Below are positions 11,481 through 62,111 of a stretch of DNA of 64,000 nucleotides, piece by piece. The position numbers were made by a program, and so were the translations under genes. Each line of letters opens with the position of its first letter. The stretch's first letter is position 1. Origin of the DNA: Heliopora coerulea. Lineage: Eukaryota > Cnidaria > Anthozoa > Scleralcyonacea > Helioporidae. Location: assembly GCA_030142905.1 (NCBI GenBank), contig JASJOG010000444.1, forward strand, positions 105,553 through 169,552. Direction: 5' to 3'. The notes under the pieces were generated by a model. It saw nothing but the letters and a program-made list of their open reading frames with translations, did no database searches and had not been told where the DNA came from.

Positions 11481-11567
11481 AACTGAGCCGTGGGAACCAG
11501 GGAGAACAAGATCTAATGGAAGTTGACCATACTCTTCCATTGACTGAAGAAGAAAGCAGTGCATTTG
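11481..11567 (+). CDS. 87-nt phase-1 microexon (type A)
   Basis: The acceptor tttgctttacag precedes the exon and donor gtgaga follows it. Both boundaries are in phase 1, so the exon is symmetric and skippable. It encodes 29 residues, beginning [E]LSRGNQGEQDLMEVD and ending EEESSAF[G], acidic and hydrophilic with no known domain. A second 87-nt exon at 62025-62111 aligns along its whole length (shared GEQ.LM and E.ES.A). Downstream intron sequence (11568-11900) is also shared with 62112-62440, so the pair arose by duplication. I infer it belongs to the same gene as the Death and Roc-COR exons. Transcript evidence is lacking. Confidence 0.7.
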
Positions 11568-11904
11568 GTGAGAGAATATATTTAAAGTAGAAATATAAAA
11601 CTAAACTATCTTAATTTTAAACTGTTTAACTCACGGAACATAAATCATAAGTACTGTGGACGGGAGACGTTTTTGACATCTACCTCATTCCTAACTGAAT
11701 CGTAGAGCAAAATATTAGAGAAAAACATCTTTACCCTTAACTTACTGATTGTAAACTGATCATTTACATACAGGGTGGAAGTAAAGATCTGTTTAAGTGG
11801 AAAAATTATCTTCATTTTAGAACGGAATGTTGGGACGATGAAGTGACTTCCGACCTTACCTTATTTACAGACATTAAACTCATTCAATACAGGGTTCTTT
11901 ATAT

Positions 11905-12095
11905 ACATATAAAAAGAGAATTTTGATACGATCATAATCATATATACGAAAAATCTCACTGCCCCAGCAGGGAATCGAACCCATGGTGTCCGAATCTACG
12001 TATCGGTGCTGTGACCTCTGAGCTAAGGGCAGTCAGATTTTTTGTATAGATAATTACGATCGGATCAAAATCCACTCTTCATATATATATATATA
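11905..12095. repeat. Palindromic element with tRNA-like core
   Basis: Arms of about 55 bp (left 11905-11960, right 12037-12095) are imperfect inverted repeats, sharing gattttgat.cgatc and the edge aaaaatct. Between them, on the minus strand, lies a tRNA-like sequence opening actgcccttagctcag, with B box GGTTCGATTCCC and a complementary closing stem ggggcagt. It looks like a tRNA-derived foldback element. It is directly followed by the Tc1 element at 12098. Confidence 0.65.
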
Positions 12096-12097
12096 TA

Positions 12098-13485
12098 CAG
12101 TAGGGGACAAAAGTCTGAGTCCAGTTGTATTTTTTCCCTCAATGTATGATAAATCATGTTTCATGTGGAAAAAAATTCATTTATTGATCTACACATGCGT
12201 ATTTTTATCAGTAAATGCTTCCACTTGCCTTCCTTTTAATTTTTGAGTTATTTAACACACGCTGTAATTTACATAAAGTCTCTATGATGTGTAGCTGGAC
12301 CAAAGACGGCAAAAGGACTCAGTGAAGGAATAAGAGGTCAAATAATTGCACAGAGTAATGAAGGTTTTTTACAACGCAAAATTGCTGAAAAGATGGGGAT
12401 TTCAAAGGGAGTCGTGCAGCGAACTTTGGAAAGGTTTCGAAGAACAAAATCCTATTCTACAAAACCAAGATCTGGGAGGCCAAGAGCTACCACTTCGAAG
12501 GAGGATCTGTACATTAAAACAACTTCCTTACGTAACAGAACTGCAAGGGCTGGTAACATTCAACCAAGAGTTAATGAAACTCAAGAAAAAACAATAAGCA
12601 GATCAGCAGTGAAAAGGAGACTAAATGCATGTGGTCTACATGGAAGAGTTGCTGTCTTAAAACCATTGCTAAGATCCCGAAACAAACGGAAACAACGGCT
12701 ATGGGCCAGAAAATACAGGCGTTACACTAAAGAAGATTGGAAAAATGTTCTTTTCGCAGATGAATCAAAATTTGAAATATACGGAAATAACCGTCGCATT
12801 TATGTTAGTCGTAGAAAGAATGAGAGATTTATAGATTCTTGCCTCAAGCCAACAGTGAAACATGGTGGTGGGAACATTCAGGTTTGGGGCTGCTTTAGTT
12901 ATAATGGTGCTGGCGATCTTTAAAGAATTAAGAACACTCTTACAAAGCAAAAATATCACTCCATCCTTCAAAGACGAGCCATACCATCTGGCTTAAGGTT
13001 GTGCGGAAGGGGTTTTGTGCTGCAACAAGATAATGATCCGAAACACACTTCTCACATGTGTAAAAATGATTTAAGAAGGAAGAGAAAGGTGATATGGTCG
13101 TTATGGATTTTCCTCCTCAATCTCCGGATCTAAACCCTTTTGAGAATTTATAGGAACATTTGAAACGAGAGAAACTGAAACATGATCCCACAAGTAAAGA
13201 CAACCAATGGGATGTCCTTAATCAAAGCTGGAATAACCTTAAACCAGCAGTACTCAGAAATCTTGTTGACTCTATGCCAGGAAGAGTTGAAGCTGTTTTA
13301 AAAGCAAAAGGAGGTCACACAAGATATTAAAGTAATGTTTACTTGGTCAATACAATGTGCTCAATTCCAATGTTGATGTAAATGCTAAAGTTATGCACAT
13401 ATAGTGCTGTGTTGTGTGAAAATATATTGTATATCAATAAAAGACAAAAGCATACTGACTGGACTCAGACTTTTGACCCCCACTG
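12098..13485 (+). mobile_element. Tc1-like DNA transposon, degenerate
   Basis: The left terminal repeat starts cagtaggggacaaaagtctg. The right end is its inverted counterpart (reverse complement cagtgggggtcaaaagtctg). Dinucleotide TA lies immediately outside both ends (12096-12097 and 13486-13487), the target duplication expected for Tc1/mariner. The 1388-bp element encodes a single transposase gene, now broken. The target was an (AT)n stretch at the edge of the palindromic tRNA-like element. Confidence 0.92.
12300..13330 (+). pseudogene. Tc1-like transposase pseudogene
   Basis: The coding frame opens upstream of the first Met, at the phrase KGLSEGIRGQIIAQSNEGFL, and runs through an HTH (IAEKMGISKGVVQRTLERF), a GRPRATT hook-like motif and a second HTH (ISRSAVKRRLNACGL). 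The catalytic domain follows: first Asp in LFADESKFEIYG, second in LQQDNDPKHTSH, and a Glu in SPDLNPFENL. The sequence ends near GRVEAVLKAKGGHTRY. Frame changes near 12920 and 13070 and a stop just after the Glu motif destroy the ORF. No translatable start was found between the left TIR and the HTH. It is a clear member of the DD(E/D) Tc1 family, inactive as sequenced. Confidence 0.9.
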
Positions 13486-13498
13486 TATGTAAACTTTT

Positions 13499-14180
13499 TT
13501 GTCACACCAATCTACTCAAGATCTGCAGCGTTTGTGACTCTTTAACCCTTTAGCAACCGATTATTTTTGAGATGTTTTAGGACAGCCAACTTTGAATGTG
13601 ATTCTGTGCGATTTCTGTATTAAAAGCCGACAGAAGAATCCCACATGAGAAGAAACGGGACTATAGACCTTTTCAATAAGTCGAATGTGCGTAAGTTTAC
13701 ACGTTTGAAACCACTAAATTTGGAAACAATTCATTGAGGATTCCAAAGGAAGATGTGCCGTCGACCGCGGAAAATTACATACATTCAGATTTATGAAAAC
13801 AGCCTATCCTGCGGGCATATACCAGAAAGGAACACATTCATACTCGTGGAGCCCACGAGCGGATGGACAGGTGTGGGTTGAACTCAGCAGAAACTGCTCC
13901 CGTGAATACGCTGTCCCCGTGGGGGGTAGAAGGATTAATAAATAATCTGCAATTAGTCACGTATTAAACTTGAAGGTACATTGCTATGGCTGTCTCGTCG
14001 TATAATATATATATATATATGAATGGTTTATTTCCCGTACCATCCTCATTAGAATATTTTCCTAAATACAAGTCATAACAGTGTAATAATAACGAGAATC
14101 CAATTTTTTTGTACAGATGGTGTTCAGGAATCCAATGAAGCAAGCGAATCAGTAGCAAAACCTGGTAAGCAGTAGTAAAG
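13499..14180 (+). repeat. Duplicated flank of 48-nt microexon, copy 1
   Basis: Sequence from about 13499 to 14180 matches 60882-61645. It includes the phrase accctttagc.accgattattttt, an (AT)n tract and the microexon with its polypyrimidine tract. The whole intron-exon unit was therefore duplicated, not just the exon. Confidence 0.85.
14117..14164 (+). CDS. 48-nt phase-1 microexon (type B)
   Basis: Acceptor ttttttgtacag and donor gtaagc enclose exactly 48 nt with phase-1 boundaries. It encodes [D]GVQESNEASESVAKP[G]. The copy at 61587-61634 is also 48 nt and encodes [D]DVEESNDTNEPIAKP. Most differences between the two still leave an acidic, Ser/Asn-rich peptide, suggesting the peptide was constrained at some time. 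It sits about 2.5 kb after the 87-nt exon, and the Tc1 element lies in the intron between them. Confidence 0.7.
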
Positions 14181-14520
14181 TAAAGTAAGTAAAAGTAAAA
14201 CTAAAAGCTAAGTAATGTACTGGGACCAGTTGTTAAAAGGACGGCTAATACTAATCCTTGGTTAGTAATTAGTCAATTTTAGTTCCGTGTATTTTGGTTG
14301 ATCAGTCTAATTTAATTTGAGAACAAATCGTTTCTAAGTCCAACCGAAGTCTGCAGAGAAAACTTATAAATTTTATTTGCCATATCCTTAGAATTTGTCC
14401 TTAAAGTTTCCCTTAATCCAAGAAAAAGTTGCTTTTTTAGCAACCGAATCAGAGCGTTGGGCAAGTGTATTTTTAATGGAAATTATGCTTACGGAAGCAT
14501 GGGGTTACTAATGCAACTGA

Positions 14521-15441: not shown

Positions 15442-15444
15442 TAC

Positions 15445-15718: not shown

Positions 15719-15719
15719 G

Positions 15720-16480: not shown

Positions 16481-16481
16481 A

Positions 16482-16657: not shown

Positions 16658-18640
16658 ACAACTCGCACACCCAAGTAAGGAAGGTAGAAGGGGTCTTAGC
16701 CTGCTACGGGCTCCCAGGACTCCACCAAGTGAGGCCGCAACAGACATTGCATTTTTCAGGGAACTCGTGAGGTCAGGAAATTTTACCAACCCTTATTCGC
16801 CCAACTTATCCTGTCAGGAAGGAGAAAGGGAGCCCTCTAAAGTCCGCATATCCAGTTTGACCTTAACAGTACTCTGTTGCACTTCCAACCACTTGAGGTC
16901 AGTTTAGGTGTCTCACTGCATGGGTTAAGACTGAACGTTGTTTTATTCTTACACTAGTGCTCATCTGTTAAAGAATTTAAGGTTTTTTCATCGTCAACCA
17001 ACTAAGGTCAGGGGCATCAGCTAGCTGTACAGATTTTCTTCTAGTCCTTGGGCTAACAAGGCAGAGTTGCCAACACCTGAACGAGGTGTTCTTGCAGCTG
17101 CCAGCCAATTAAGCTACGCTGAGGCTTTTGGCTATCTGTCTACATAGCTGGCAAAGCAGGGGCACCACTCCTTACGTCATCTTACCAAGGCCTGCTAGTT
17201 TTATAGAGGTCACTGGCTCCGAGTCATTGTATTGTTTACCTATCTCTGGTTTTACCTCGGAGTTTTCTTCTCCTAGACAAATTGCAACTCAAGGCTAAAT
17301 AGTCTTATCTACTCTTGGCTAAGGGGTTGCTGGCACTTACCAAAGGTGCCACCCCGGACTCTGGTGGGCGGGAGCCAGATCCACTAACCAGACCTTCCTC
17401 GCTTTCTCGTCCTCTAATGTCAAGTCTGGTCCGCGTGCAGAGCTGATCTTTCTCATCATATGCTCCAAGTCCCAACACAACTTGAGCCCGTTCTCCTTTT
17501 GGACATGGCCTTTCTCCCATCTAACAGTGTACCATGCCGTATTGGCAGGGAGAAGTTCTCTCTCAACGGCTCAGCTAACAGCCTGTACCATCAACGCATT
17601 GTTGTGCCTATCAAGATACTCGGTTCCTGCCAGAATCTCACACCCTGCAAGCAGGTGTTGAACAGTTTAATCAAACATCTTGCACAATCTACATTTTCCG
17701 TCCCCGCCTCCTATCCCACGCAACATTTTCCACTTCCAAGTCTCCATCACCTGCTCCAGTAAATGCATAATTCCAGCCGTTTTCTGCGGTGTGATATTTG
17801 TGTTCAACCACACAAGGCTCTCGTTCTCCTGCCCTGCAAACACTTGACTCTGCATACGTTTCTCTTTATAATCGTTCTTCAACTTCTCTGTATACCCGTT
17901 CTGCATTCCTTTCTTCAGCTCCGCCCAACGTCCTGCTCATTCTTTCTCCATCCTCTCACCATCTTTCCAGACTTCTTCCTCCCTAAATTCAACCTCCACT
18001 CCAATATCACCCAGCGCTTGTTCTACTTCCCTTTTTCAAGCTCTTGTATTCACCGTTGTACTCTCTCTTCCAAGCAATCCTTATTCAGCAGCTCGTGCTA
18101 CAAACCATGTACAATGCCACCCGCATCTTTGTTTCCTTATAAACTTGCCGCAGGCTCTTCAAGCGGCGCCCTCCATCCTGTCTCTTCAAGTAGAGCCTCT
18201 TATCACTTGTCTGTCGGCTCAGCATACCTCTCTTGCGTAGAATATCCTTCACCAACATGTCAAGGTCATATAACTCCTTCTGGGTGAACTGGCATACATT
18301 CATGGCGTAGGCCGCAACTGGGATGACTCTGCAATTGATCGGTGTCTTGAGATTTTTATCATACAGCTCAAGCTCTAAGAGGCTCTGCAACCTTTTTCGC
18401 ATTTCTTCCTTGATTCTCTGCAATACTTTCTCTTTGTTTATCTACTTCCCCTACTCTATTCCAAGGAATTTGTAGAAGTCGTCCTTCTCTGGATCCAGCG
18501 CCTCTGCACTTTCTTCCAATATAGTCAAGCCCTCGCCTTTAGTCATCTTACCTCTTCTAAATACTACCTCCGCACATTTCTTCACCCCGTACACTGCACT
18601 TGTATCGTCGCCAGCTTTCACGATTGTCTCGTTAGCAGCT
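16658..18640 (-). mobile_element. TAA-targeted LINE, 5'-truncated (same family as 2308-6150)
   Basis: The 3' end is acaactcgcacacc next to the microsatellite. Reading on the minus strand, there is a 3' UTR (16658-17330), an endonuclease remnant (about 17370-17460) with GPDLTLEDEKARKVWLVD, a thumb (18085-18423) with MNVCQFTQKELYDLDMLVKD, and a palm remnant ending near AANETIVKAGDDT. The 5' side is cut there and abuts (ATT)n at 18641. The thumb is nearly identical to that of the 2308-6150 element, so both belong to one family. Stops and frameshifts make it inactive. Confidence 0.85.
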
Positions 18641-24481: not shown

Positions 24482-24529
24482 AGGTTGTCGACGAATTCAT
24501 TGAAGGAACGGTTAAAAATGAAAGTTCAG
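24482..24529 (+). CDS. 48-nt phase-1 microexon (type C)
   Basis: Acceptor atcttattcag and donor gtaaac bracket 48 nt with phase-1 boundaries, encoding [E]VVDEFIEGTVKNESS[G]. It shares the opening EVV and the donor with the exon at 46145-46192 ([E]VVKEIKEETSESTKA[G]). Neighbouring introns are about 10 kb upstream and 14 kb downstream, most of it transposon. Confidence 0.65.
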
Positions 24530-29912: not shown

Positions 29913-30384
29913 AATAGTGGCTTCCACTTAGGCTGAAAGACCAGCCAGCGTTTTCAAAACAGATAGCTAGTATTTCGTTTTACCGACCAAAATATTTTTA
30001 GGATTTCAAGTGTAACTTCGTTGGCTGGATCCTTGTGTTGTGTAATCCCAAAACGTGCTAAAAACGGATTAAATTTCGTAGTTATCTGCATGGTGCATAA
30101 GTGTACTTCTTTCGGAATATAACTGTTCAGAATCCCTCTGGTAACATGAAGCTCTAGATTGCTCATTACCCGAAAAATTTGACCGTATTACCGTTCCGAA
30201 AGCTAAGTACAGTTATAGCTGCATTTACTTCGCATGTCGTGTTCGATAAAAACTTCTCACGACACTAAGTCGTGTAAGATGTCATTACTATTGTGATGCT
30301 TTTTTATGTGTGTTAGATATAAAATTTACTTCAGATTGGTGTTTCTCAAGGGGTAGACTCTAAACACTAGTAACCTTAACCATT

Positions 30385-30582
30385 CAACTTATTCTTGATA
30401 GCTCAATGCCAAGAGGCCTTGCCTGATAATGATAAGATTACCGGTTTGATCCCCCGTCTAAGGCTCAGAAACAATTTCTGAGGACTTGAACCTCACGACC
30501 GTTCGCATGTCTTCTTTCGGACTGTGGAGAGCTGCTGTTGCACATTGTTTGATTTATTATAAGGTGGGGGGGGGGGGGGGGG
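30385..30582 (+). repeat. SINE remnant followed by poly-G
   Basis: Phrases cttgatagctcaatg, ggtttgatcccccgtc and tcagaaacaatttctgagg match the tRNA-derived SINE with decay. A G17 tract lies at 30566-30582. Confidence 0.6.
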
Positions 30583-30734
30583 CAGTCTTCTGTCGTAAAT
30601 TGTGAGGAAATATTAACAGCGTGCAACAAAACACGGAATAAAGCCTTGAAACATGTTCAACATCTTTTCTTGAAAAGGGGAACAACTTCTTGGAATCAGT
30701 TCCGCACAACAGTTAGTGTACTAATCTGGCTTCC

Positions 30735-31330
30735 CATCAACTGACCAGTGGGAACAAAGATAAGAGCAACCTACAGAACTTTAGTTTACTTGAATCATGT
30801 TCTATGCCAACTGAGCAATAAGATCAAAGTTTAATACATCCTACAATGTTTGGTTTACTGGTTTGATTTACGACCCACTGAGCAATGAGGTAAAGGTTGA
30901 GAATAAACCCATACATTTAGTTTATTAGTCTGATGTTCAACTGAGCAATAAGACCAAGGCTGAGTAGAAACCACAACCTTTGGTTTACTGGTCGGATGAT
31001 GTACCGTCTGAATTATCAAGCCAAATATGAAAATAACCCACGACTTTCAGTACTCATCTGATGTTCTACGAACTGAGCTGTAAGACCGAGTTTGAGAACA
31101 ACTTACGACCTTTGGTTCGCCGGTCTGATCTTCGATTTACATAACTATTAGACTAAGGCTAGAAGCATACAGTATCAAAAGTTCAGGTTTGCTAGTTTAA
31201 TTCTCTAACAGCTGAACTTAGTAATCTATGAGATTTAGGTTGAAAGATACGCAAAATTTTTCGTCTACGACTCTGATTATCTACTAACTGAGCTACGGCA
31301 CTAAGGTTGGAAGAACTTGGATCGCGTGAA
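30735..31330 (-). repeat. Tandem array of about nine degenerate tRNA-like units
   Basis: The tRNA D-arm complement aactgagcaataag recurs, often decayed, at about 30739, 30809, 30876, 30939, 31006, 31071, 31137, 31209 and 31286, a spacing of 63-75 bp. Between occurrences sits ggtttactggtctgatg followed by an acaacctt-type B-arm remnant, all in minus orientation. One unit is about the length of one tRNA with no spacer. None has intact boxes and stems, so no functional tRNA is claimed. Confidence 0.65.
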
Positions 31331-32578
31331 GATGCATCGTGGATTGACTTTCCGGCATTTAAGTTACTTCTTTCATTACGTGAAAAAGCTTTCTTGAGTT
31401 TCCAAAAGTAGCGTTGAGGAACGATGCCAACTTTTGAATGCAATCGTCCCTAGCAAGGTCGTTGTGTTACAGACATCCATCATTCAGACCCTTCTTTTCT
31501 TCGTTTTTGGGTAGTTAAACTCTTTGTTAACTCTGCTGTAACGCCAAATTTTAAGCCTGGTAGAAAGTTGACTGTTTATTTTGTGTTGACATCAGAAAAG
31601 TTGAGCTCTATCTGTAGCAGTGGCTAAGGAATTTGGAACGTATTTGTAGTCATGTCTGTACATAGAGCGTCTAAACAAGCCCCATGTTAAACAGATAAAG
31701 TCTGAGTGATGGGTAAATTCCACATAATGATCTTTTTAGGAAATTTTGTATCCTATCTGAGTGCTGTTTTAAAGAGTTAAATTTTTTCATACTATGAAAA
31801 AGCTGCAGCAATTCTGAAGAAGTTACAGCTTGAAATTACGAGTTCATGACATTTACTATTGAAGCGCGAGGTTCTCAAAGTAAACTTACTATTTTAGTGG
31901 GATACTGCATCCATGGTCGTCATTTTCTCGAATTGAGTACCCTTGTGAAAGATGTTTCATTTACGCCGTTGCTATCTGTAAAAAAAAATGAGATTTGCGA
32001 ATTCAAATGACAGCTAAAGTCAAGCTTTTCTCGACATAAAACTTGGACGAGTTGTATGAGATAATTGACCTCAAGAACATCTGTTAAATGGAAACATCAA
32101 CAGGACGTAACTGAAAAATGAAAGATTCAGTAACATGAAGGACTGTCTAGCAGATATAAGGTATCTTATTCAATGAACAAATACATTCACTGACAAAATA
32201 AGCGCTGAACAACGCTTAAATTTTTGACGCCAGTTCTTGGAGTAAAAAGCAAACAACATTACGTCTGTTTTAGGAATGAATTTTTGTTTGGGTTTTTGAG
32301 TTGATATTATTTTGCAATTAATGCAAACAAAGCATTATCGATCATTACGACGAATTGAATACAAGATGTTCTGCAATGAGATAATTAGCTTAATTTCATT
32401 TTCACTGGAAATAGTGCAAAGCAAACTTCCATTTTGGATATTTTTCTTTCATGGAAACATACGGATAACTCTTTCCAGATATCCATGCATCCTAATTAAA
32501 CATTTTCACTCTTATATAAAACAGGACTTATGAAAACATACAAAGACAAAACTTGTAAAATTAACAACAATTGGCAAA
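31331..32578. other. No gene seen (probable intron)
   Basis: AT-rich sequence without a supported ORF or repeat. Confidence 0.5.
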
Positions 32579-38297: not shown

Positions 38298-38345
38298 AAA
38301 ACGTGAAAGGAGATCAAGGAACTGGGAAAGAAGCTTTGAAACATG
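38298..38345 (+). CDS. 48-nt phase-1 microexon (type D)
   Basis: Acceptor ccttttattttag and consensus donor gtaagtag flank 48 nt with phase-1 boundaries, encoding [E]NVKGDQGTGKEALKH[G]. Splice sites are the strongest of the set. No duplicate of its flanks was seen in the window. Confidence 0.7.
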
Positions 38346-39129: not shown

Positions 39130-41205
39130 GAAACAACAGTCGTTTTACGGCCGTTTTCCCTGCTTATGCAGGGGTTGGCTGTCGGCTCTACACAGCAGAC
39201 TCTTCCACCTCTCCCTATCCTTCGCATCTTCCCTTTTCAACCCGCACTCTCTCATGTCCCTTTCCACCACCTGGCTCCATGTCATTCTCGGCCTTCCCCG
39301 TCATCTCTTACCTTCCATCTCAAACGACATGATCTTTTTCACCCAATCATCATCATCCTTCCGCAGCCTATGTCCCAACCATCTTAACCTATTCCGTTTC
39401 ACGGCATCAGACACTTACTCAATCTCCATTCTTTCCTTCAGCTTTGCACTCGGCAATCTATCCCTCGGTGATACACCACACATCCATCTCACCATCCGTA
39501 CATTCTAGTCTCCCACTCTACTCCGCCGTTATGTTCCACGTTTCACTTCCATATACCATAGCACTCTTCACACACGTCACATACAGCTTCTCCTTCAGTT
39601 TAAATGACACTTCCTTTCTTGTCAAGATCCCTGATAATTCCTTAAATTTCCTCCACGCACAACGCATCCTTGCCACGGATGCAGGATTCGCTCCTCCACC
39701 CCCATTCAGCATATCACCCAGCTAACAAAACTTTCCAACATTCTCTAAGTGAACTCCATTTCCCAGATCCAAGCTCTCTTCCACATTCCTATCCTCTTCA
39801 TCACCTGCTCTTTCACACGTCTTGCACACAAACGGATCCCTAACTCTAACCAGAGAGCCCTTCACACCTGAGCATCAGTTGTGTACCCATCCATTGCATC
39901 TCGTACATCTGATGGAAATGCTCCCAACACCCTTTCCACATACCGTACATGGCAACGTCTCCAGTCTTTCAACATGATCACAATTCTTCTCTGACACCTT
40001 CACCTTTGTTTTACCAATGTTCACCTTCAACCCTTTCGCCTCCATGCACTGTTTCCACCTCAGCACTTTCCCCTTAAGTTCCTCAATGCTGTCAGACATC
40101 AGAACTACATCGCCAGCATATAACAGCTCCCACGGCAGGCCCTCCCTAACGTCTTGCGTCAGCGCTTCCATCACAACCACAAACAGTAATTTACTCAGAA
40201 CAAATCCCTGATGTACCCCAATCGTCACCTCAAACTCCTCATTGTGTCCATACTTCGTTTTCACCATTGTTCTTGCTTTCTTATACATTATCACCGCTTT
40301 CACCAGCCATTCCCCACCAAACCACTTCTCTTGATATCCTATCCAATGCCTTCTCCAGATCCACAAATGCGAAATACAATGGTCTCTTATTTGCTAGAAA
40401 CGTCTCCTGCATCTCTCGTACCACAAAGATCCCATCTGTCGTCCGTGTCCCTGGCATAAATCCAAACTGCCTGCCATTAATATTTACTTTCCCTACCAAC
40501 CTTCTCTCCAGAACCCTTTTAAATACCTTCATCCTGTGTTCTAACAACTTTATTGTCCCATGTGCCCGAAACTCCGATTGGTCACATTTCACCTTTTAAA
40601 TGGGTACTCAGCTCCCAGTCCTTCAGAATCTTTTCCTCGTCCACTACCATATTGCAGATCTCTGTCATCTTCTTCACCCCTAGCTGACTAGCTGCACGGA
40701 TAATCTCATCCACCAATTTCACCGGACCTCTTGACTTCCTGCTTTTCATTTGCCCTATCGTCTTCTCTACTTTTATCTCTGTGATAAGCTCTCTTGGTCC
40801 TTCAACTATCCGACACGCTACAATTCCATCCCAATCATTCTCTACATTCAATAGTTGCTTTACATACTCCCTCCATCTCTTCTTTATTATCTCCGGTTTC
40901 ATATTTATATTTCCACTCTCATCTTTCAGGCAGTTCACTTCAACCATATCCTGTCTTTCTTGAACACAGATTTCTGCCCTTCTTCTGCGTTGAGCTTTTC
41001 TCCTAATCTCTTTCTCTCATACTTGTGGGCTTGAGCAACCGCTTTCTTTGCAGTCTTCTTTGCTGCTACATACTTCTTCAACACTGCTTTTTCTGCAGCA
41101 GTACCCTTTGCCCGACACCACGCCTTGAACTTCGACTTCTTCTCATTCACCTTCTTCTCAACCTCTTCATTCCACCACCATGTTTGCACATGCCTTGGTG
41201 GGTTT
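39130..41205 (-). pseudogene. RTE-like LINE, degenerate
   Basis: Frames in order on the minus strand begin with an N-terminal linker (40935-41189) containing WWWNEEVEKKVNEKKSKFKA, then the pre-RT segment (40582-40947). The RT (40281-40592) has FGFMPGTRTTDGIFVVREMQ and AFVDLEKALDRI. The palm/thumb (39875-40366) has VTIGVHQGFVLSKLLFVVVM, the box LLYAGDVVLMSDSIEELKGK in which YADD has become YAGD, and a PHD-like CTVCGKGVGS.SIRC.RC.GWVH. The C-terminus (39518-39712) has LYVTCVKSAMVYGSETW. The catalytic Asp loss and frame breaks make it inactive. The 5' endonuclease is missing. Confidence 0.85.
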
Positions 41206-46144: not shown

Positions 46145-46192
46145 AGGTCGTCAAAGAAATTAAAGAAGAAACATCTGAAAGTACAAAAGCAG
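46145..46192 (+). CDS. 48-nt phase-1 microexon (type E)
   Basis: Acceptor cgcattctgcag and donor gtaaac flank 48 nt with phase-1 boundaries, encoding [E]VVKEIKEETSESTKA[G]. It lies only 279 bp before the second copy of the duplicated block. The window begins inside the first copy, so a related exon may sit just left of the window. The next predicted exon downstream in phase is the Death-domain exon, 7.7 kb away. Confidence 0.7.
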
Positions 46193-46470: not shown

Positions 46471-48808
46471 TGATATAGTACTTCTTTGAAAAGACTATTG
46501 AAAAAACCTGTAGCGTTGCCGGTATCCCAGCATTTTTGTTACGGCTTCCAAAGGGTAAGGATACTTTTTCATTTACTTTTCCCGTGATAAAACTATTAGT
46601 AAAAATACTTCTGAACTTTTGAATGTTTGAATTAAATGTCATTGAGTTGGGCGCAAAAATGCCTTGACTTCTCCGCAAATTTAGACTTAGTTTCAGGAGT
46701 AGTTTTAGGAGTTGCTTTTCTTCGAAAAATTCAATTAAAAACAAAATAAGTGAATATACATGAATGTTAAGTAAGCATTCATGCGTTCATGGAGCAAAAC
46801 GAGATCAAAAGAAAATCTCACGAAAACAAAAATTGCTCAAAAATAACGAACAGAACGAACCAAATACTGTACAAAATAGTTTGCTTTTTTAGTAGAACTG
46901 TTGTTATCGGCCTTTGATTAAAACAACTTTAGCTTTGACCATCTTTACCAATCAATTGTTACCAATGTTATTCTAATATTCTATATTGTTTCCAAGATGT
47001 CTAAATCTCCATTAACTCTTTCCTTGCGGGAGCTCACCCCTTGACGAGTAAAGTCGTGTAGCGTAACTAAGAGTAAAAAACCACAACCAGAGGACAATTT
47101 GAAAAGGTAAAGAATACAACACAGACCGAAAATTGTCATCTTGTGACTTGATATTCAAGTTGGAACAAGAAACAGACAAGTTGAAAAACGGTAATATTTC
47201 GGCTTTATTTCAGAGTCATCATCAGACCAAGATGATGCAAAAATATTACCGTTTTTCAACTTGTCTGTTTCTTGTTCCAACTTGAATATCAAGTCACAAG
47301 ATGACAATTTTCGGCCTGTGTTTTATTCTTCGTAACTAAAAGTGAAATAATACAAGTTCTATCTTGCTGCAAAAGATTTAAGAACGTATCTTCTTGTTGG
47401 TCAACAAGTTGCGGACACGCAATAATATGACTCATAGGTAACTGTGGCAAATTCAACTTCCGTTCCGTTTATTTCGCCAATTTAGCTTTTCCAAACCACC
47501 CTATCATTGCAACATGTTTCATGTTGACAACAGTCATGTTTAACATGCTTTTAATTTTCTATCAGTACATTTTGTACCCTTACTCCGGTCATTTCTAAAG
47601 CTATACACCTAGTACGAGATGTTTAAATGATACCGAGGTTTAAGGTATATAACCACCTTATATCACCATTGGTGCATGAGGTTTTTGAAAACTAAGTTAG
47701 CAATGTTTGCAATTGACTAGTCTCCGTTGACATTTCGTTCCAGATATTTCCATTTTCTAGGGTATAAGTACGACAGATGTTTGGGTATGGTTGTAGGGAA
47801 TATCGAACGCTTCCAAACGAAATATTGATCACGATTGTGGCAGATTAAAGGTGGGGGGGATAGGGGGGATTTTGGGAACGTGCTAGCGGCTCCGCGCTTT
47901 TTTGTGCCTCGCACAATTTTTGGGGGCCTCGCGCTTTTTGATAATGATAATGATAATGTTATTTTACCCGGGAGCTCACATCACCGAAGTGTTTTTCAGT
48001 GAAGCCCTGATTATCAGTGGCGTGTATATAGGGAAGCAGGGGGGCGACCGCCCTCCGGCCGGAAATTTCCGTCAGAAAGTTTAGAGCTTGTCAGAAAATT
48101 TGAAGGAGGATACCTTACTATATTTCATTCGCTGAGAAGTCAAAAAACCTTCAGGACTAGAAATGTCAAAAATTGGACATTTGTAGATCATAGAAATGAT
48201 ACGATATTACGGTAAATGAAAATTTGAAACTACTTTAAACATCTTTTACCTAAACCGAATGTAGAAAACCGAATGTTTTCTTCTGAAATATGGCAACTGT
48301 CTGCCTATAAATTAGCATTAGAAAATTCATTCCTCGCGGTTCGTGTTGACAGGTGCCTAACAACGTAAAGTTTCGTCCAATAAACTTCAACGTTTTAACT
48401 TTGAAACAATGCGTTAATTAACGCACAGTGTACAGTCAGTTGCAAATGCAGTAGTACAAAATAGGAAAATCGTGTAATCAAAAGAGCCTATAAAATTGTT
48501 GGTAACATTTTGTGTCCTGAAAAGAAGCCAGTCAATGCTAGTTGGTTGGCGCCGCTGTGTCCGCGTACTACAGCCAAGGCTAGACTGCTATTACTAATTT
48601 TAAACTCTAAATGACTAATAAAAATGCATTTGCCGTTTGTTCAGGTAAACCGATTTAGGCTAACTCCTGTCGGAAATTTTTCAAATCTCGCCCCCCTTCC
48701 AGAAATTGTTATATACGCCGCTGCTGCTGATTATTATTATTATTATTGTTATTATTGTTATTATGTTTCTATTAACCAGTTCATATTCTGGTCATTATTC
48801 CCTCCCAT
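46471..48808. repeat. Duplicated 2.3-kb block, copy 2
   Basis: Pairs with 1-2307 in the same orientation. It differs by a 256-bp hairpin insertion (47075-47330), absence of the LINE 3' fragment in its TTA tract, a shorter G tract and scattered substitutions. It ends at ccctccca, where PLE sequence begins. A short minus-strand ORF with NRDQYFVWKRSIFPTTIPKH is shared with copy 1 but has no known domain. Confidence 0.88.
47075..47330. mobile_element. 256-bp hairpin insertion (solo PLE terminal repeat pair)
   Basis: Absent from copy 1 of the duplicated block. It is flanked by cgtaactaagagt (47062-47074) and cgtaactaaaagt (47331-47343), a 13-bp target duplication with one mismatch. Arms 47110-47198 and 47240-47330 are inverted repeats of about 90 bp with aacttgtctgtttcttgttc inside, separated by about 41 nt. 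The junction holds a minus-strand hammerhead-like motif: CTGATGA (47225-47219), T linker, GACTCT, loop, AAAGCC, GAAA. A relative of one arm lies at 59755-59835. Confidence 0.88.
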
Positions 48809-51360: not shown

Positions 51361-51369
51361 GTGTGTCCA

Positions 51370-52856: not shown

Positions 52857-52879
52857 CATGTTCACCATTAAAAAATTTG

Positions 52880-53871
52880 TCGTTTATTTGAAATGTCTGA
52901 AAACTGTTTAGTTGTGTAGTTGCTGTTGTGCATAGATGTACTTTTATTTCGTTTTAATTTTCATGTTTGTTGTATTTCAATTTGGAATTGACTTTATATT
53001 AAATTCCATTTATTTTATTTTTTTATGAAAAAAATAAATAAATAAAAAGGCCATCAAGTGAAACGGACTACGTTATTATACCCTTATCCAGGATTGTAAC
53101 TTGAGAAACGCGTGGCATAACTCAAGAACAATCTTGGAACGAGCACAATAACGAGACGTGTTCGTGGAGGTGATCACAAAGCGGATTGTGACTGCATCAG
53201 AAAAGAAGGAAAATTAGGCTTGAGCTGCAGAGAAAACTCTGTCTAAAGGAGGGAAGGCAGCACTTGCTGAAATGCAAGTAGTTTTTGGTCCTGTCGAAAA
53301 ACGTCTTACAATTCACAAATAACTATCTTTGATCAAACTTCTCAAGCTGTTAAAAGTAACTCACTGAACATTTACAGTGTCATAAGAGCACTGTCAATTC
53401 AGTACCATACCTGCGCAAGGGTTTTTAGAGGTTCGGTGTTTAAGAAGGTAAAGGAGTCCTCTGTGGTTACCCTTTTTACAGATGAAAGCTATAGTAACAC
53501 GCACATCAGTTTGTGTAAAACAAAATGTTAGATAATCAGTATTTTAGTACATTTTATATTAATTTTTCTGATACGATGGTTGTGATTCGTGACCTTGAAA
53601 TTGGCCCAAGATTTGCCCTCAGATATTTTGGAGGTGGACAAAATCTGGCCAACTTCCTCCGGCAACATTGAACCCTAGAGTTCACCTGTTATGGCTGGTA
53701 AATAATTATAACGCCTGAGCAAATGTACAAAATTAAATGTGGGTGAGGGAAATTGCTTCGATGCTAACTGGATGTGACAAGTAAACTAGAGAAACTTTAC
53801 ACTTTAGACTTGTACATACTATAAAATAATGCTATTAACTCTTATCCTTTTGATTCCTATCTTGGCATCAG
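52880..53871. other. No gene seen (probable intron)
   Basis: AT-rich. The last 40 bases form a strong polypyrimidine tract ending catcag, the acceptor of the Death-domain exon. Confidence 0.55.
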
Positions 53872-54153
53872 GAAGCAGCAAAGAAAAGTTGACAATCCGT
53901 GATCTCAACGCAGCAGTCTATGAGACAATCTGTAAAGAGTTGAACAAGCCAATTCATGGTAGAGATTACAAAGCTTTAGCTGGACAATTGGGATATACCG
54001 CTGTCGAGTTAAAGACGTTTCAACTGCGACAAGATCCAGCTGATGCTTTACTGTCCCACTGGTATACGAAGTCTTACAACAATATTAACAAGTTGATTAA
54101 GATCTTGAAGAAGATGGAAAGGCATGACCTCGTCAAGATACTGGAAGCGCAAG
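53872..54153 (+). CDS. Death-domain exon (282 nt, phase 1-1)
   Basis: It encodes 94 residues of a Death domain: LTIRDLNAAVYETICKELN, then KALAGQLGYTAVELKTFQL, PADALLSHWYTK and NINKLIKILKKMERHDLVKI. The LA..LG and ..LL..W patterns are the core of the fold, which mediates homotypic binding in immune and cell-death signalling. The acceptor is at 53870-53871 and the donor gtaatt at 54154. An upstream ATG at 53829 would add an apparent signal peptide (MLLTLILLIPILASG), but that stretch is the intronic polypyrimidine tract, so I reject it as coding. Phase and strand match all upstream microexons. Confidence 0.85.
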
Positions 54154-54307
54154 GTAATTTTTGTCTTTTCAATTAAGTTAGCTAATAAGATTAAATTGGA
54201 TTGTGTATACTCCAGGCAGAGCCGTACCATGTTAGTAATTTGCCTGGGACAAATTTTGTTAAAGGCGCCCTCTCGCTGCTCTCTAACGCACTCGAAGCTC
54301 CTTATAT

Positions 54308-56253
54308 TGTAATAATTGTATGCCTCTAATGGGTACAACCGGAATACAACTAAACGAGGCATCCGATGACTTTGTCAATCGTACTTTCATTGAAGACATT
54401 GCCAAGAGGATGAAACAACGTAATAAAAAAAAGACAAGAGCGTTGATAGACCTGGAAATCGACCAGGAGATAGCGATAGCAATGACGGATATGCAACTAA
54501 GGATATAAGTGGAGATAAAAAGGCAAATAGAGGTGAAGATGAAGAGGAGAAGAAGAAAGAGAAGGAGAAGAAGGCGAAGGAGGAGAAGGAGGTGGACGAG
54601 TTCGGATTCAAGACAATACGAAAAAGATTCATGGTTTTTTGGATGATAGAATGATGCAAGCTGTTAAAAGACAAATGTTAGAAGTCGGCTCGTATGACGA
54701 TGATCAATTGAACAAGGTCTGGTTAGTGCTTAATGACGTAGCTGGCCAATCCATTTTTTATGATATTCACTCAATCTTCTTGAGACTGCAGTCTTTGTTC
54801 GTCCTGGTTGTTGCTCTTGACAAAGAACTTGCTGATGAAGCTAAGCCGTTGTTTGCCGAACAAGGAACGAACCCGATGCCGATAGAGAATTATTTGGTGG
54901 AGACCAACCTTGACTATGCATATAGGTGGATGTCAGCTCTCCGTAACATCTATCAGTGCAATAGACACCATGTGGGTACTACTGAATTTGATCAACCTGC
55001 AGCCATCTTGGTGTTCACTAAGTCTGATTTGGTTACCAGTGAAGAACAAGTGAAAAAAGCGAAGGAAAACGTTTTGAACAGCTTCGCTAAATATGGTTAT
55101 CGAGCCCATATTGTAGACACTTTTGTCATTGATAACACCTCTTCCAAACTTTCCCAGTTTGAGAAACTTCGACAAAAGATTTTCGAAAGCTCGCAAGTTA
55201 TTCTAAAATATCAAGGTAAATTTCCCATTAACTGGCTCAAGTTGGAACGTAGTCTTGCTGAAGTGATGAAATCAAAGCCATATATAACACATAATGATGT
55301 AGAAAAAGTGGGAAAAGACTCTCAGGTGGTCGACAAGTTGTCGGAAGCAATTGAAACCCTTCACCACCAGAATGTTGTCATGCATTTCCCTGACGATGAC
55401 AAAGCAAGCAGTCTCGTGGTCCTTGATCTACAGTGGCTAATCAAACTATTTACTCAAATAAAAAATGTGCTACCAAGTGATAGGCGAGCTCCAACCCATG
55501 CTACGTTCTGGGAGCAACTGAAAGATCGTGGTCAGTTATCTAAAAAATTGCTTCGTAAAGTACTCGAGGAACATGGGGAACACATGGAAGCTCTTACGAG
55601 AATGATGGAAATGGTGAATTTGATATGCCCTTGGGATAAAGAAACTTGGCTGGTTCCATCAATGGCTGAACTTGGCAAGGCAAGAAGAGAAGTAGATTAC
55701 CAGCTGAAAAAATGCTGTATTCTCTCCTTGTACATAGATTTCGAAGGTGGCTACATTCCTCTTGGTTTGTTCACGCGTCTGCTTGTGATCCTCATTCTTA
55801 AGAACAAGATTTACTTTCGTGATGTTCCGCGTCTTTCCAGTTATTCCAGTCTTTTGCCGGTGGAAGATGATGACGTGAAATTTTATGTTATCATCGTCCA
55901 ACATGTGTCAAGAATTCAAGCAGCTTTGAGTACTAATGGCTACCAAATTACAAACGAGGAGTTGGCGAAGATTGCATTGAAGTTGAAGTCCTCCCTCAGT
56001 GATGCTGTAGAGAAAATTCGTCCTAAAGTCTGACTACAAAGGCTTGAAGTATCAGTTTGCTGTAAAATGTAAATGTGGCCATGAAGAGGACAAACGATGC
56101 GCTCGACATCAATTAGAGGATTGCTCCGGCAAAGACTGCTCTCACTTCGTGCCTCTTGATGATTTTCATGGTACGCGTCGATGTTCTCTCAGCTGTGAGT
56201 TTCTCGATGACGAAATGGCCGGACCTTGGATAAATAGAAAAAGTGAAAGTTAA
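54308..56253 (+). pseudogene. Roc-COR (ROCO) GTPase region, with three apparent frameshifts
   Basis: The first part (about 54308-54430) has TTGIQLNEASDDFVNR, likely the switch I region. A Lys/Glu-rich linker in another frame ends EVDEFGFKTIRK. The long frame (from about 54643 to 56033) has the G3 motif LNDVAGQSIFYDIHSIF and G4 AILVFTKSDLV, then the COR domain with WLKLERSLAEV, ISH-like ITHNDVEKV and SSLVVLDLQWLIKLF. A Cys-rich tail (56044-56253) has CKCGHEEDKRCARH and CSGKDCSHFVPLDDFHG. Frame changes fall at an A8 run (54425-54432), a T6 run (54635-54640) and near 56027. No P-loop GxxxxGK[ST] is visible in any frame from 54155 on. ROCO proteins are GTP-dependent scaffolds; here it may be decayed, or the breaks may be assembly errors. 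Confidence 0.8.
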
Positions 56254-58500: not shown

Positions 58501-58537
58501 GTAACCAAGCAAGTGAATTATCTCACCTTTGTGAATC

Positions 58538-58975: not shown

Positions 58976-59530
58976 AGAAAAGTGTAAGTTGAATTTATCC
59001 GCTATTTGTCCTGTATCTTCAGTAGTCGAATCACCAATCTTTGAAGAATGCGGATTCGCTTACGATCTAACTGGAATTGCTTTGAATCTAAGTCAAAGTA
59101 GTTAGAGATAAAGGAACGCAAAGAGTTTTTAACCTTTTCTGTAACAAAGTTACTATCCTTGAATTGTTTGAGTCGGTCAATCTGGTCTCAAAGGTTATCC
59201 GCTAAGGACGTCATTTCTAAGTTGATGGGTCGTGTCGCAAGGACATGGCGTAATCCAAGTTAATCTGTTCTTCCGAGAGCTCTTGGCCAGATTCAAAACC
59301 GTTTCATCTGGATTGTCTTGTAGTCCGTCAATGGTGTTTTTAAGAGATGAAAGAACTCCACACAAGTGCCGTAGCACAACATTTTCTTAATTGATCTTAC
59401 GCCCAACACATCGCTGATCTCAACGTCTTTCATGACAATCTTAACACTTCCTTTCACGTGCCAACTAATCCGACAAATCTTATCTTTAGTAATTGTAAGA
59501 TTATTCACTCTTGTAAATCTAATAAGCCCA
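58976..59530 (-). other. Unrecognised sequence upstream of the LINE fragment
   Basis: Short minus-strand frames (59195-59377, 59293-59508) show no known motif. It may be the 5' part of the same LINE, too decayed to read. Confidence 0.3.
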
Positions 59531-59573
59531 ACCAGTTACTTATAAAGGGAAACTTTCATGATAATCTGACACT

Positions 59574-59650
59574 GCCGAAGTCAACTGAAAATGTTGACTC
59601 GAGCGGGATCTGAACTCGCACTTTCGGGATACCGGTTTCATGGTTAATAG
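59574..59650 (-). repeat. tRNA-derived SINE fragment
   Basis: The sequence gttgactcgagcgggatctgaactcgca is the inverse of a tRNA-like 3' half and matches the copy at 9792-9882. Confidence 0.5.
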
Positions 59651-59754
59651 GCGATGACATTATCCAAGGCATGTATACATACAGATAGCAGTTCGTTTGC
59701 TTACCAGTTGGTTTTGACAATTACTCTGTAATAGAGTGGAATAATCACCGCAAC

Positions 59755-59835
59755 CTTGTCTCTGTCTTGTCTTGTTTCATAACTTGAATATCAAGCTAAC
59801 AAGATGACGTTTTTCGGATCATGTTTTTTTCTTTA
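59755..59835 (+). repeat. PLE terminal-repeat fragment
   Basis: The phrase aacttgaatatcaag followed by aacaagatgac and tttttcgg matches the right arm of the 47075-47330 hairpin. There is no associated ORF. Confidence 0.6.
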
Positions 59836-60880
59836 CCTTAAACGCTTTAGAGAACTTAGCAACACCTACACCTACAAGGAAGCTTGTCAAAGACCTATAA
59901 CCGCAAAAGTTGTAATATAGGTCATGTAATAGATAGCTGAATTATGGCTTACCTAAACACTCAAACATTGGAAAAGAATCTTAATGCTTGTCGTTTACGT
60001 CTTGTGACCCCTTTAGACAACAAATTTACTTAAAACTGAATGAATTTTCTGGTGAAAATATATTACAGTCATTTAACGTTAGTTAATGTAACGGACATCG
60101 TAAGTCATATCTTTAGGATGTAAAGGTCGTCTACCTATCTTTATACCAGACCGAAAATTTTTGAAAAGCCAAGTGACCAGACATTTTGTGGCACATAGAG
60201 TGGTGATGACGGTAGTAATAATTTTAAACATTTAAGTTAAGTTTATTTGACTATATCCTGTTATTTCTTTGAAGTATAACCGTTAACAGAGCTGTTAAGC
60301 CACAATAACTTAAATCCATTCCAAGCTTTAACCCATATAAACAAAAACGATGATAGAGACAGTAAGCATTTTGGCGGAGAACGTATCATATAGTGCTGTG
60401 AAACAAAAGCCGGTTATATAAAATACCCAAGGAGTTTCTTGGTAGAAAGGTTACTGATAAATGTTCTGGTCTCACTGGTTAAAAAACGGGAAGTGTAAGG
60501 AAATGATTGAACCGACGTGTTTACTGCCTTGTTGTTAATGGTGTCCACGTAAATTAGTCCGGTTTAAATTTGATGACCGGGAAAAAGTCGAATTTCGAAT
60601 TAACTAATTACAAAGACAGTAATAGTTTCAACAACTCATTACGGGGTGTTTGATACAGCGGTACAATCAGTGGTATAAAACAAACCAATATTTTTTCAAG
60701 ACCGTTAAACGTTGTAAATCGTGAATGGATCATACATCTCCAAGCGTGTATCTGGGGTAGTACGTATGAGTTACCTGGAGGACAATTTGTTGTTGACTGA
60801 AATAGTCTTTTTTTAAAAATTTTTTTGAAGATATTCAAAACAATTTGAATCCTAACAGGACGTATGTACACTTGTTTGTC
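59836..60880. other. No gene seen
   Basis: AT-rich. Short ORFs only, none with a recognised motif. Confidence 0.5.
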
Positions 60881-60881
60881 A

Positions 60882-61381
60882 CACTAGTCTACCCAAGATG
60901 TGCAGCGTTAGTGACTCATTAACCCTTTAGCGACCGATTATTTTTGAGATGTTTTAGATCAGTCAACTTTGAATGTGATCTGTGCGATGTCTTTATTGAA
61001 GACCTACAGAAGCATCCCACATGAGAAGAAACAGACTATAAACCTTTTCAATAAGTCGAATGTGCGTAAGTTTACGCGTTTGAAACAACTAAATTTGAAA
61101 ACAATTCATGAGGATTCCAAAAGAATATGTGCCCTCAACCGCGGAAAATTACGCACATTCAGATTTATGAAAACAGTCTATGCTGCGGGTACATACCAAA
61201 AAGGAACACATTCATAGTCGTGAAGCCCACAAGCGGATGGACAGGTGTGTGTGGGACTCAGTGGAAGCTGCTCCCGTGAATTTGCTGTCTCCGTGAGGGG
61301 ATAGGGGGATTAATAAATAATCTGTGATTAGTCACCTATTAAGCTTCAAGGTACATTGCTATGGCTGTCTCGTCGTATAAC

Positions 61382-61416
<35 letters not shown>

Positions 61417-61645
61417 AGTAAATTTCATCTTACTAAGTGTAGATGTTTGTAAGCTTGGATGTATATTTATATATATATATATATATATATAAATGGTTTA
61501 TTTTTCGTACCATCCTCATTAGAATATTTTCCTAAATACCAGTTATAACAGTGAAATGATAACGAGAATCTAATTTTTTTGCACAGATGATGTTGAGGAA
61601 TCTAACGATACAAACGAACCAATAGCAAAACCTGTTAAGGTTTTT
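60882..61645 (+). repeat. Duplicated flank of 48-nt microexon, copy 2
   Basis: Pairs with 13499-14180 over about 700 bp, with extra (AT)n expansion at 61385-61490. It contains the decayed microexon at its end. Confidence 0.85.
61587..61634 (+). pseudogene. 48-nt microexon (type B copy) with lost donor
   Basis: Acceptor ttttttgcacag is followed by 48 nt encoding [D]DVEESNDTNEPIAKP. The first donor base is lost: cctg|ttaagg here against cctg|gtaagc at 14164. Without a GT donor in phase the exon should not be spliced normally. Acidity and length are still conserved against 14117-14164, so the loss may be recent. Confidence 0.65.
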
Positions 61646-61689
61646 AAGTAATTAAGAATATAATTTGGTTAAGAATATCATTTGGTTTG

Positions 61690-61880
61690 GTTAAATTTGG
61701 TCAATATAATTACTGACCCACAACAAAACCTGTTGTTTTCACTCGGCATTATATCAGGGAATGCAGAGAGCAAAATTATGCAAGTCGAATTTGAAAAATT
61801 TTGTTCGCTGTATTCGCTGATATTATGCAGAGAAAACATAATAGGTTTCGATGAAGGTCAGTAATTATAATAGATAATTA
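61690..61880. repeat. Short repeat shared with 62710-62930
   Basis: Phrases attatatcag.gaa, gagcaaaatt, gctgatat.atgcagagaaa and tctgtaattat recur in the same order at 62720-62910. The unit is about 180 bp, is not coding, and may be a local duplication or MITE. Confidence 0.6.
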
Positions 61881-62024
61881 CTTCGGCACACAGCATTATT
61901 TGATATAATACTGGCAGCTTCTGCCTGTGACCTCAGCTGCCTGCATTATATCCAGTAAAGTGCTTTTTTGGTTGGAAGCGAACATAATTGAACATACATC
62001 ACCGACAGTTCTTTTGCGTTACAG

Positions 62025-62111
62025 AACATAGCAGTGATAGCCAAGGTGAACAGAATCTAATGGGGACCGAGAATGCGCCTCAGTCTACTGAAGATGAAAG
62101 CAATGCATCAG
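62025..62111 (+). CDS. 87-nt phase-1 microexon (type A copy)
   Basis: Acceptor cttttgcgttacag and donor gtgagg bracket 87 nt with phase-1 boundaries, encoding 29 residues beginning [E]HSSDSQGEQNLMGTEN and ending EDESNAS[G]. Its length, donor type and GEQ.LM core match 11481-11567, and 62112-62440 matches the intron after that exon. It lies 5.8 kb beyond the Roc-COR stop, so it probably opens or continues another gene copy. Confidence 0.7.

Follow-up and report, generated by a model that had tools for sequence, protein, structure and literature searches.

Seven short units on one strand

Do seven short, exon-like units on one strand of a 64,000-nucleotide stretch of Heliopora coerulea DNA (hereafter the window) belong to a gene, and if so to what kind? 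The first-pass annotation had described five units of 48 nt and two of 87 nt on the + strand, and all seven were recovered there:

11481..11567, + strand: A1, candidate 87-nt phase 1-1 linker exon, ELSRGNQGEQDLMEVDHTLPLTEEESSAF (splice-site scan; genomic copies)
14117..14164, + strand: B1, candidate 48-nt phase 1-1 linker exon, DGVQESNEASESVAKP (splice-site scan; genomic copies)
24482..24529, + strand: C, candidate 48-nt phase 1-1 linker exon, EVVDEFIEGTVKNESS (splice-site scan; genomic copies)
38298..38345, + strand: D, candidate 48-nt phase 1-1 linker exon, ENVKGDQGTGKEALKH (splice-site scan; genomic copies)
46145..46192, + strand: E, candidate 48-nt phase 1-1 linker exon, EVVKEIKEETSESTKA (splice-site scan; genomic copies)
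61587..61634, + strand: B2, 48-nt copy of B1, donor GT now TT (comparison with B1, introns included)
62025..62111, + strand: A2, 87-nt copy of the A type, EHSSDSQGEQNLMGTENAPQSTEDESNAS (comparison with A1; splice-site scan)

The units very probably belong, as linker exons, to a very large gene family that is arrayed in tandem and joins a Roc-COR GTPase to at least one Death domain. Six of the seven are flanked by acceptors scoring 7.7-9.0 bits and donors scoring 7.1-12.5 bits, which bears out the proposed phase-1, G-ending structure between an AG acceptor and a GT donor, and the unit at 61587 (B2) has an acceptor of 7.8 bits and, as had already been seen, no GT donor, such that B2 is presumably skipped. 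This loss recurs in three of the 12 B loci read (L017, L019, and L020), the last two of which sit on contigs that possibly duplicate this stretch. Junction codons in the window are always Glu, Asp, or Gly, as reported, but this is in part a constraint, since only Val, Ala, Asp, Glu, or Gly is possible with G as the base preceding the intron, and one genomic copy (L047) has Val. The acidic character ascribed to the peptides also held: they are mostly acidic or polar, with acidic residues outnumbering basic ones in seven of eight (D is neutral).

The splice-site scan used a generic metazoan splice PWM, allowed all lengths from 24 to 300 nt, and had its thresholds placed just below the observed unit scores, and hence post hoc. 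It returned six open, phase-1, G-ending units on the + strand of the window, four of 48 nt and two of 87 nt, compared with two on the - strand (54 and 60 nt) and an average of 0.98 over 60 local dinucleotide shuffles, where no single length ever occurred more than once. Looser thresholds admitted other lengths; the + strand gained a further 48 or 87 only at the loosest setting, at which 43 units pass, and a 48-nt unit appeared on the - strand at the two loosest. The claim that the lengths are not accidental is thus supported at the set thresholds. Chance pseudo-exons, picked from the thousands of AG/GT pairs that 64 kb contains, are an exceedingly improbable explanation and were rejected: although the lengths 48 and 87, like the thresholds, were chosen post hoc, and 42 acceptor-donor pairs of 20-400 nt on the + strand and 30 on the - strand precede the open-frame filter, every other length was permitted and none was returned on the + strand, and genome-wide copies keep their sites, a constant strand, and a recurring order beside Death and Roc-COR exons.

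Copies across the genome

The first-pass annotation had proposed scanning the flanking genome for further 48- and 87-nt phase-1 units, and such copies were found at 12 to at least 40 places per microexon. Counts from the 430 Mb searched are minimum values, since scoring was limited to the best candidates. The A type was found at no fewer than 40 places (40 of 101 candidates scored), the C type at at least 40 (40 of 105 scored, nine further rows being side pieces), and the E type likewise at at least 40 (40 of 57 scored). The B type occupied 20 places, to which ten further rows belonged as side pieces, and the D type 12 strong places and one weak. Roc-COR had about 90 matches, also a lower bound, and the Death domain at least 150 (150 of 546 candidates scored), which need not all be one exon type since they are 41-100% identical.

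Lengths and sites were largely constant among the copies read. A copies measured 87 nt in 12 of 12 and were open in 11; B copies measured 48 nt in 12 of 12, nine with a GT donor; E copies measured 48 nt in 12 of 12, 11 with an AG acceptor; and Death1, an exon described below, measured 282 nt in 20 of 20 and was open in 19. Three A types share only 9-13 of 29 residues, yet all are 87 nt long. The Roc-COR exon was in phase 1 at both ends in four of five paralogs read (the frame of L005 is broken) and also in C398, and units A to E and Death1 in the copies read likewise had phase-1 boundaries on both sides. A Roc domain with a P-loop, followed by COR, was identified in L004 (Roc E 9.3e-13, COR-A E 1.7e-17) and in C398 (Roc E 1.1e-13, COR-A E 7.1e-16). 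A second Death exon, Death2 (Pfam score 60.7 bits), had a phase-1 acceptor and a stop codon directly after the domain in five of six loci, the sixth being unmatched by the search string.

Exon order and strand

The first set for neighbour counting comprised 86 of 90 Roc-COR rows (four partial pieces removed), 98 of 150 Death1 rows, 66 of 150 Death2 rows, 20 of 30 B rows (the ten side pieces removed), and all 40 rows each of A and E. Rows for D (12 of 13, a weak 70-base match removed) and C (40 of 49, the nine side pieces removed) were added later, and in the final count the remaining Death1 and Death2 rows were restored except where a Death row in the set was no more than 200 bases away. The 533 features formed 224 same-strand and two opposite-strand pairs within 20 kb, both of the latter being weak Death matches in C529 with no microexon. 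Neighbouring pairs within 20 kb that involved a microexon agreed in strand in 142 of 142 cases, although such pairs are not independent, because segments are duplicated. Beyond 20 kb, features lay on both strands in nine of the 98 contigs holding more than one feature.

The usual order was B (48 nt), C (48 nt) and/or Roc-COR (about 2.1-2.2 kb), D (48 nt), E (48 nt), Death1 (282 nt), A (87 nt), and Death2 with its stop. Ordered pairs included Death1-A (28), A-Death2 (21, or 30 with weaker Death matches), C-Death1 (12), D-E (10), Death2-B (8), and Roc-COR-D (5). Death1 was the nearest upstream feature within 20 kb for 28 of 40 A places, and E followed D at 7.6-11 kb in ten of the 12 strong D places. 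Exceptions were Roc-COR before B in five pairs and after Death1 in three (two and one, respectively, without likely duplicate contigs), about twenty other neighbour steps seen one to four times each, and member C63, in which neither D nor E was found between Roc-COR and the Death1 that follows it. A first (5′) exon was looked for and not found; a candidate some 250 nt or further upstream of B, with a conserved donor and an ATG frame in nine of 12 loci, was discarded, as the whole of that stretch is conserved and copies differ in it by single-base indels.

These data bear on two further explanations. That the microexons and their introns are not gene parts but are carried along by a dispersed repeat or transposon would fit their high copy number at high identity (introns included), introns about as conserved as exons, and a D-E stretch copied along with its transposons. 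We consider it very unlikely, and rejected it, because a transposon would land in either orientation and all 142 pairs agree; the open phase-1 frames flanked by good splice sites also argue against it. Somewhat less remote, but still improbable, is a single very long gene whose repeated cassettes are spliced in a mutually exclusive, Dscam-like manner, as opposed to many tandem genes. Phase 1-1, same-strand modules do extend over hundreds of kb (C103 and C251), but the stop-bearing Death2 exons recur between modules, and B lies 2.8-3.2 kb beyond Death2 in seven of eight Death2-B pairs, which looks like gene ends followed by gene starts.

Death and Roc-COR exons in the window

Three additional features of the window relate the microexons to this family:

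53872..54153, + strand: Death1, candidate 282-nt phase 1-1 exon with a Death domain (PF00531, E 4.6e-13)
54330..56252, + strand: decayed Roc-COR exon with approximate limits; lacks the P-loop part and has a broken frame
30331..30337, + strand: deletion scar between C and D; the homologous place in C398 is ~3.45 kb longer

Position 53872, previously a junction target in the series of linker units, is a phase-1 exon start but not a linker microexon; it opens Death1, whose domain (53808-54173) scores 49.5 bits against a Pfam cut-off of 22.6. The Roc-COR copy that follows has at least three frame changes by eye against P0001, and its longest open piece (54543-56033) retains COR-A (E 6.1e-15); no Roc with a P-loop precedes COR in it. 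The extra ~3.45 kb in C398 holds a whole Roc-COR exon (C398:25359-27554), and the window gene B1-C-D-E-Death1 has lost its Roc-COR exon through a clean 3.45-kb deletion, after which the frame should survive. No Death2 was found within the window.

The window may be a decaying cluster of dead genes whose exons were real in an ancestor, an explanation that is compatible with the family and to which we give a little under an even chance. The decayed and deleted Roc-COR exons, the lost B2 donor, the missing Death2, a weakened donor in E0 (a copy of E just upstream), and A1/A2 exons that diverge faster than their introns all point toward it, but open frames and good sites are present in every one of A1, B1, C, D, E, and Death1, and other family members look intact.

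Relatedness and selection

The window comparison comprised ten peptide pairs and seven equal-length exon pairs, uncorrected for the number of comparisons. The peptides had been considered unlike one another, which does not hold: A2 at 62025 copies A1 at 11481 (77% alike) and B2 at 61587 copies B1 at 14117 (88%), introns included, E0 duplicates E, and C and E have 30 of 48 nt in common. Kinship with E is suggested for C and perhaps for D, and equal unit length largely reflects shared descent.

Differences between A1 and A2 affected 28 of 87 exon sites and 63 of 365 intron sites (p 0.002), and between B1 and B2, 9 of 48 and 65 of 634 (p 0.06). Across copies, pi in exons versus introns was 0.069 versus 0.036 for A and 0.046 versus 0.040 for E, with B in the opposite direction (0.127 versus 0.180), so that exons were not consistently better conserved than introns among close paralogs. 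Because A exons outpace introns, the possibility that the linkers are under positive selection was weighed, but it is not claimed, as dN/dS, from close paralogs with few changes, was below 1 (A 0.39, B 0.70, E 0.73, Death1 0.69).

A proposed family of Roc-COR and Death genes

In the proposed family, a gene would run 5′ exon - B - C and/or Roc-COR - D - E - Death1 - A - Death2, the latter as last exon. Candidate sites and phases suggest that these exons are spliced as a class 1-1 module set, in which the internal exons measured have phase-1 boundaries at both ends, nearly always after G; any exon could therefore be duplicated, skipped, or deleted with the remainder in frame. The microexons would encode short, mostly acidic or polar spacers, probably unstructured, that separate the folded domains. 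Their exact lengths would persist because exons are inherited by duplication, and length changes short of a whole exon are presumably selected against. The proteins may signal in cell death or immunity. The window holds worn members, namely one gene that has lost Roc-COR but keeps its linkers and Death1 whole, and adjoining pieces without Death1, Death2, or a splice site.

The host gene first envisaged for the units thus survives as host-gene exons but not as a single gene, as portions of several tandem members fall within the window. Its expandable, skippable linker agrees with the frame-keeping units, duplicate exons, and module losses found; a purely low-complexity product is not supported, the linkers sitting between Roc-COR, Death1, and Death2. 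A more speculative and rather doubtful extension is a combinatorial kit for intracellular death or immune switches, in which hundreds of same-stranded, phase 1-1 GTPase, Death, and linker modules would let unequal crossing-over, deletion, and exon skipping freely alter domain content and spacing, with linker length changing in steps of 16 and 29 residues.

Comparison with known systems

DAPK1-type proteins consist of an N-terminal kinase, ankyrin repeats, Roc-COR, and then Death. The coral family shares Roc-COR followed by Death, but has two Death domains, linker microexons, and about 90 Roc-COR matches in the genome, and no kinase or ankyrin part was found in the ORFs scanned; the 5′ ends of the genes were not found. 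The PEVK exons of titin are likewise repeated, short, linker-coding, and symmetric, but belong to a single muscle gene encoding an elastic spring. Death and Roc-COR domains are intracellular.

The closest precedent is the brown algal LRR-ROCO genes, described as an expanded family in which 72-nt, phase-2 exons encode LRR repeats before ROC-COR, with exon shuffling and alternative splicing reported (PMC11378527, citing Zambounis 2012). As far as that description goes, both have an expanded ROCO family, shuffling, and recurrent exons that agree exactly in length and phase, but the coral exons are 48 or 87 nt, in phase 1, and probable linkers around Roc-COR and Death; no LRR-like pattern was seen by eye. 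Schistosome MEGs, as outlined in PMC10526429, also have short exons, mostly multiples of three, within long introns, but these are mostly 15 nt and the products secreted, unlike the 48- and 87-nt exons that adjoin Death and Roc-COR domains here. Massive lineage-specific Death/TRADD-N families, some with low-complexity linkers, are described from a sponge, cnidarians, and others (PMC8195603), resembling the present expansion, and the parts of that account concerned note neither a Roc-COR-Death-Death layout nor a microexon linker.

Metazoan class 1-1 modules lie, as here, between phase-1 introns, and their shuffling is described mostly for extracellular folded domains, along with some intracellular muscle proteins (PMC8001218); in contrast, a GTPase-Death family with linker-only modules appears to be so built here. 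Given some 90 Roc-COR matches, 150 or more Death matches, phase 1-1 exons, and dedicated linker microexons of fixed length, the family offers a tangible setting in which to study whether gains, losses, or splicing of exons adjust linker length and domain content, an immune role in this invertebrate being a candidate only. Spliced queries found no annotated protein of the same layout, and such genes may be widely missed because their linkers are very short and their introns long. A viral-contig scan found nothing; the nearest named relatives of the Roc-COR exon were from corals (26-27%), and the nearest overall were ENA contigs (72-73%).

Microexons, Death-domain and Roc-COR exons in the window

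The seven plus-strand microexons of the first-pass annotation were recovered with the places, lengths, phases and splice sites it had assigned: the 87-nt A1 (11481-11567) and A2 (62025-62111), the 48-nt B1 (14117-14164) and B2 (61587-61634), and the 48-nt phase 1-1 linkers C (24482-24529), D (38298-38345) and E (46145-46192). Position 53872, listed there as the target of the last junction, is the start of a Death-domain exon that had been missed, and a worn exon of the Roc-COR GTPase module follows it:

53872-54153, plus strand: Death1 exon, 282 nt, phase 1-1, encoding a Death domain
~54330-56252, plus strand: worn Roc-COR exon, just 3′ of Death1, P-loop part missing, frame changed several times

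By sequence, the nearest PDB matches to Death1 were the p75 and MyD88 death domains, and the open part of the worn Roc-COR exon was 73% identical to a protein from an ENA contig. The polypyrimidine tract 5′ of Death1 (53808-53871), in frame with it, resembles a signal peptide (MLLTLILLIPILAS), which is probably an accident of the tract.

A splice model using generic metazoan frequencies was run over both strands for all lengths of 24-300 nt. It returned exactly the six intact microexons on the plus strand and two other units on the minus strand, and shuffled windows yielded about one each; these counts are descriptive, because cut-offs were picked with the units already known. At those cut-offs the plus strand held no length besides 48 and 87, and looser ones added unrelated candidates, with no extra 48 or 87 on that strand until the loosest setting.

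Copies, order and gene ends across the genome

In the 430-Mb assembly holding the window, searches with flanks placed A, C and E in at least 40 genomic places each, B in 20, and D in 12 plus one weak. The best 150 of 546 candidate matches to a Death1 protein query were scored; for Death2, a second, diverged Death exon, the best 150 of 476 included at least 66 that were close to full length and no less than 70% identical. Roc-COR had 90 genomic matches, some being pieces of a single copy. Locus-by-locus reading took in A, B, E and Death1, and for D its counterpart D′ in contig C398 alone. Length was kept at 87 in 12/12 A, at 48 in 12/12 B and 12/12 E, and at 282 in 20/20 Death1 loci; stops occurred in one of 12 A and one of 20 Death1, and splice sites were lost in B (donor, 3/12) and E (acceptor, 1/12). 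A third 87-nt type (EANSTNQ...) lay downstream of Death1 in 9 of the 20 Death1 loci.

By search coordinates, strand agreed in all 142 neighbour pairs that included a microexon and lay no more than 20 kb apart. The commonest steps were Death1 to A (28) and A to Death2 (21, or 30 including weaker Death matches), followed by C to Death1 (12), D to E (10), Death2 to B (8), E to Death1 (6), Roc-COR to D (5), C to D (4) and B to Roc-COR (4). Off-order steps were Roc-COR to B (5) and Death1 to Roc-COR (3), of which three and two, respectively, were on contigs resembling copies of the window's tail, and others seen 1-3 times each. In five of six loci the Death2 acceptor was phase 1 and a stop codon came immediately after the domain, so this is likely the last exon. 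B lay 2.8-3.2 kb beyond Death2 in 7/8 pairs and likely sits early in the gene that follows; a first exon was looked for in family loci and not found.

Apparent runs of 2-4 consecutive Death-like exons, some directly 3′ of an A exon, were noted at C99:414-420 kb, C66:681-687 kb, C309, C345, C375, C436 and C474; these other subfamilies seem to be versions of the kit that differ in how many modules they contain. A compact relative (C63:508346-516483) has Roc-COR, two Death1-like exons and one Death2-like exon in ~8 kb; neither D nor E was found between its Roc-COR and first Death exon, and a possible 93-nt exon (510543-510635) is open in all three phases.

Origin of the equal lengths

The first-pass annotation had regarded the encoded peptides as unlike in sequence. 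At the DNA level D did not resemble E or C (D-E 22/48, p 0.11; C-D 14/48, p 0.83). A2 and B2 are copies of A1 and B1, with likeness extending through introns, and C shares 30/48 bases with E and B1 26/48 with C, levels reached by 0/2000 codon shuffles in either case. At the residue level, with p values uncorrected for the number of pairs, C and E were identical at 6/16 (p 0.011), D and E at 5/16 (p 0.007) and B1 and C at 3/16 (p 0.26). Equal lengths thus mostly reflect descent, D being the least certain unit.

Module loss

C398 opens with the window's tail sequence: 4428 bases around Roc-COR and the final 319 bases match without a difference, and the part between these two stretches differs in length by 14 bases. 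The tail of contig C384 equals the head of C398 (window 63682-64000 matching C398 14501-14819; locus L001 equals L002), 416 Roc-COR residues of C593 are identical to both, and C627 is 90-95% alike. Assembly overlap, haplotypes and recent duplication are the alternatives for this shared sequence.

Further on, C398 has a Roc-COR exon that is intact, followed by D′ at 33152 and E′ at 41043. Window 29930-30331 aligns to C398 24940-25341 and window 30337-31374 to C398 28793-29794; the C398 stretch bearing the entire Roc-COR exon is missing from the window, where B1, C, D, E and Death1 are still present. Phase-1 sites flanked Roc-COR in four of five intact-paralog loci read, at sizes of 2124 nt (locus L004) and 2196 nt (C398), and a phase 1-1 exon such as the one lost should drop out without disturbing the rest of the frame. 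The window's first gene has A1; in C251 and C229 a Death2 exon stands between A and B, and here it is missing. An open piece of a Tc1/mariner-like transposase (12288-12923, 211 aa) occupies the site between A and B where contigs such as C251, C229 and C455 have Death2. Long dispersed repeats of ~85-94% identity recur within the window (1-2305, 46471-48807, 17380-18640) and in the neighbouring gene copy in C398 (41.4-44.5 kb).

Selection, proposed role and precedents

Among close paralogs, dN/dS was 0.39 for A, 0.70 for B, 0.73 for E and 0.69 for Death1, indicating weak purifying selection at best. Exons diverged less than introns in B copies, and more than introns in A1/A2, across A copies and, slightly, in E. 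The excess in A and E counts against a simple reading; reduced constraint, diversification and conserved intronic signals are all possible.

The linker peptides are mostly acidic, rich in S/T/N/Q and poor in aromatic residues, as expected of flexible spacers, and would set the GTPase-to-Death-domain distance by increments of 16 or 29 residues. Changes in module copy number can be read from the sequence; the alternative splicing envisaged at first pass is only possible. What is known of Death and ROCO proteins in general, together with the family's expansion, suggests a function in cell death or innate immunity.

Spliced queries run against protein sequences, within length and word limits, turned up no annotated counterpart: one query had a crinoid Death-TIR protein as its best match (E 4.8), and the other gave Roc-COR relatives with no Death domain among the matches listed. 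No paper among those listed from the open-licence literature dealt with linker microexons in animal ROCO-Death genes. Shuffling of class 1-1 modules in Metazoa is documented chiefly in extracellular proteins (PMC8001218), and Death/TRADD-N expansions are reported in a sponge, cnidarians and others (PMC8195603). The nearest precedent found comes from brown algae, whose ROCO family has 72-nt phase-2 LRR exons and shows both exon shuffling and alternative splicing (PMC11378527).
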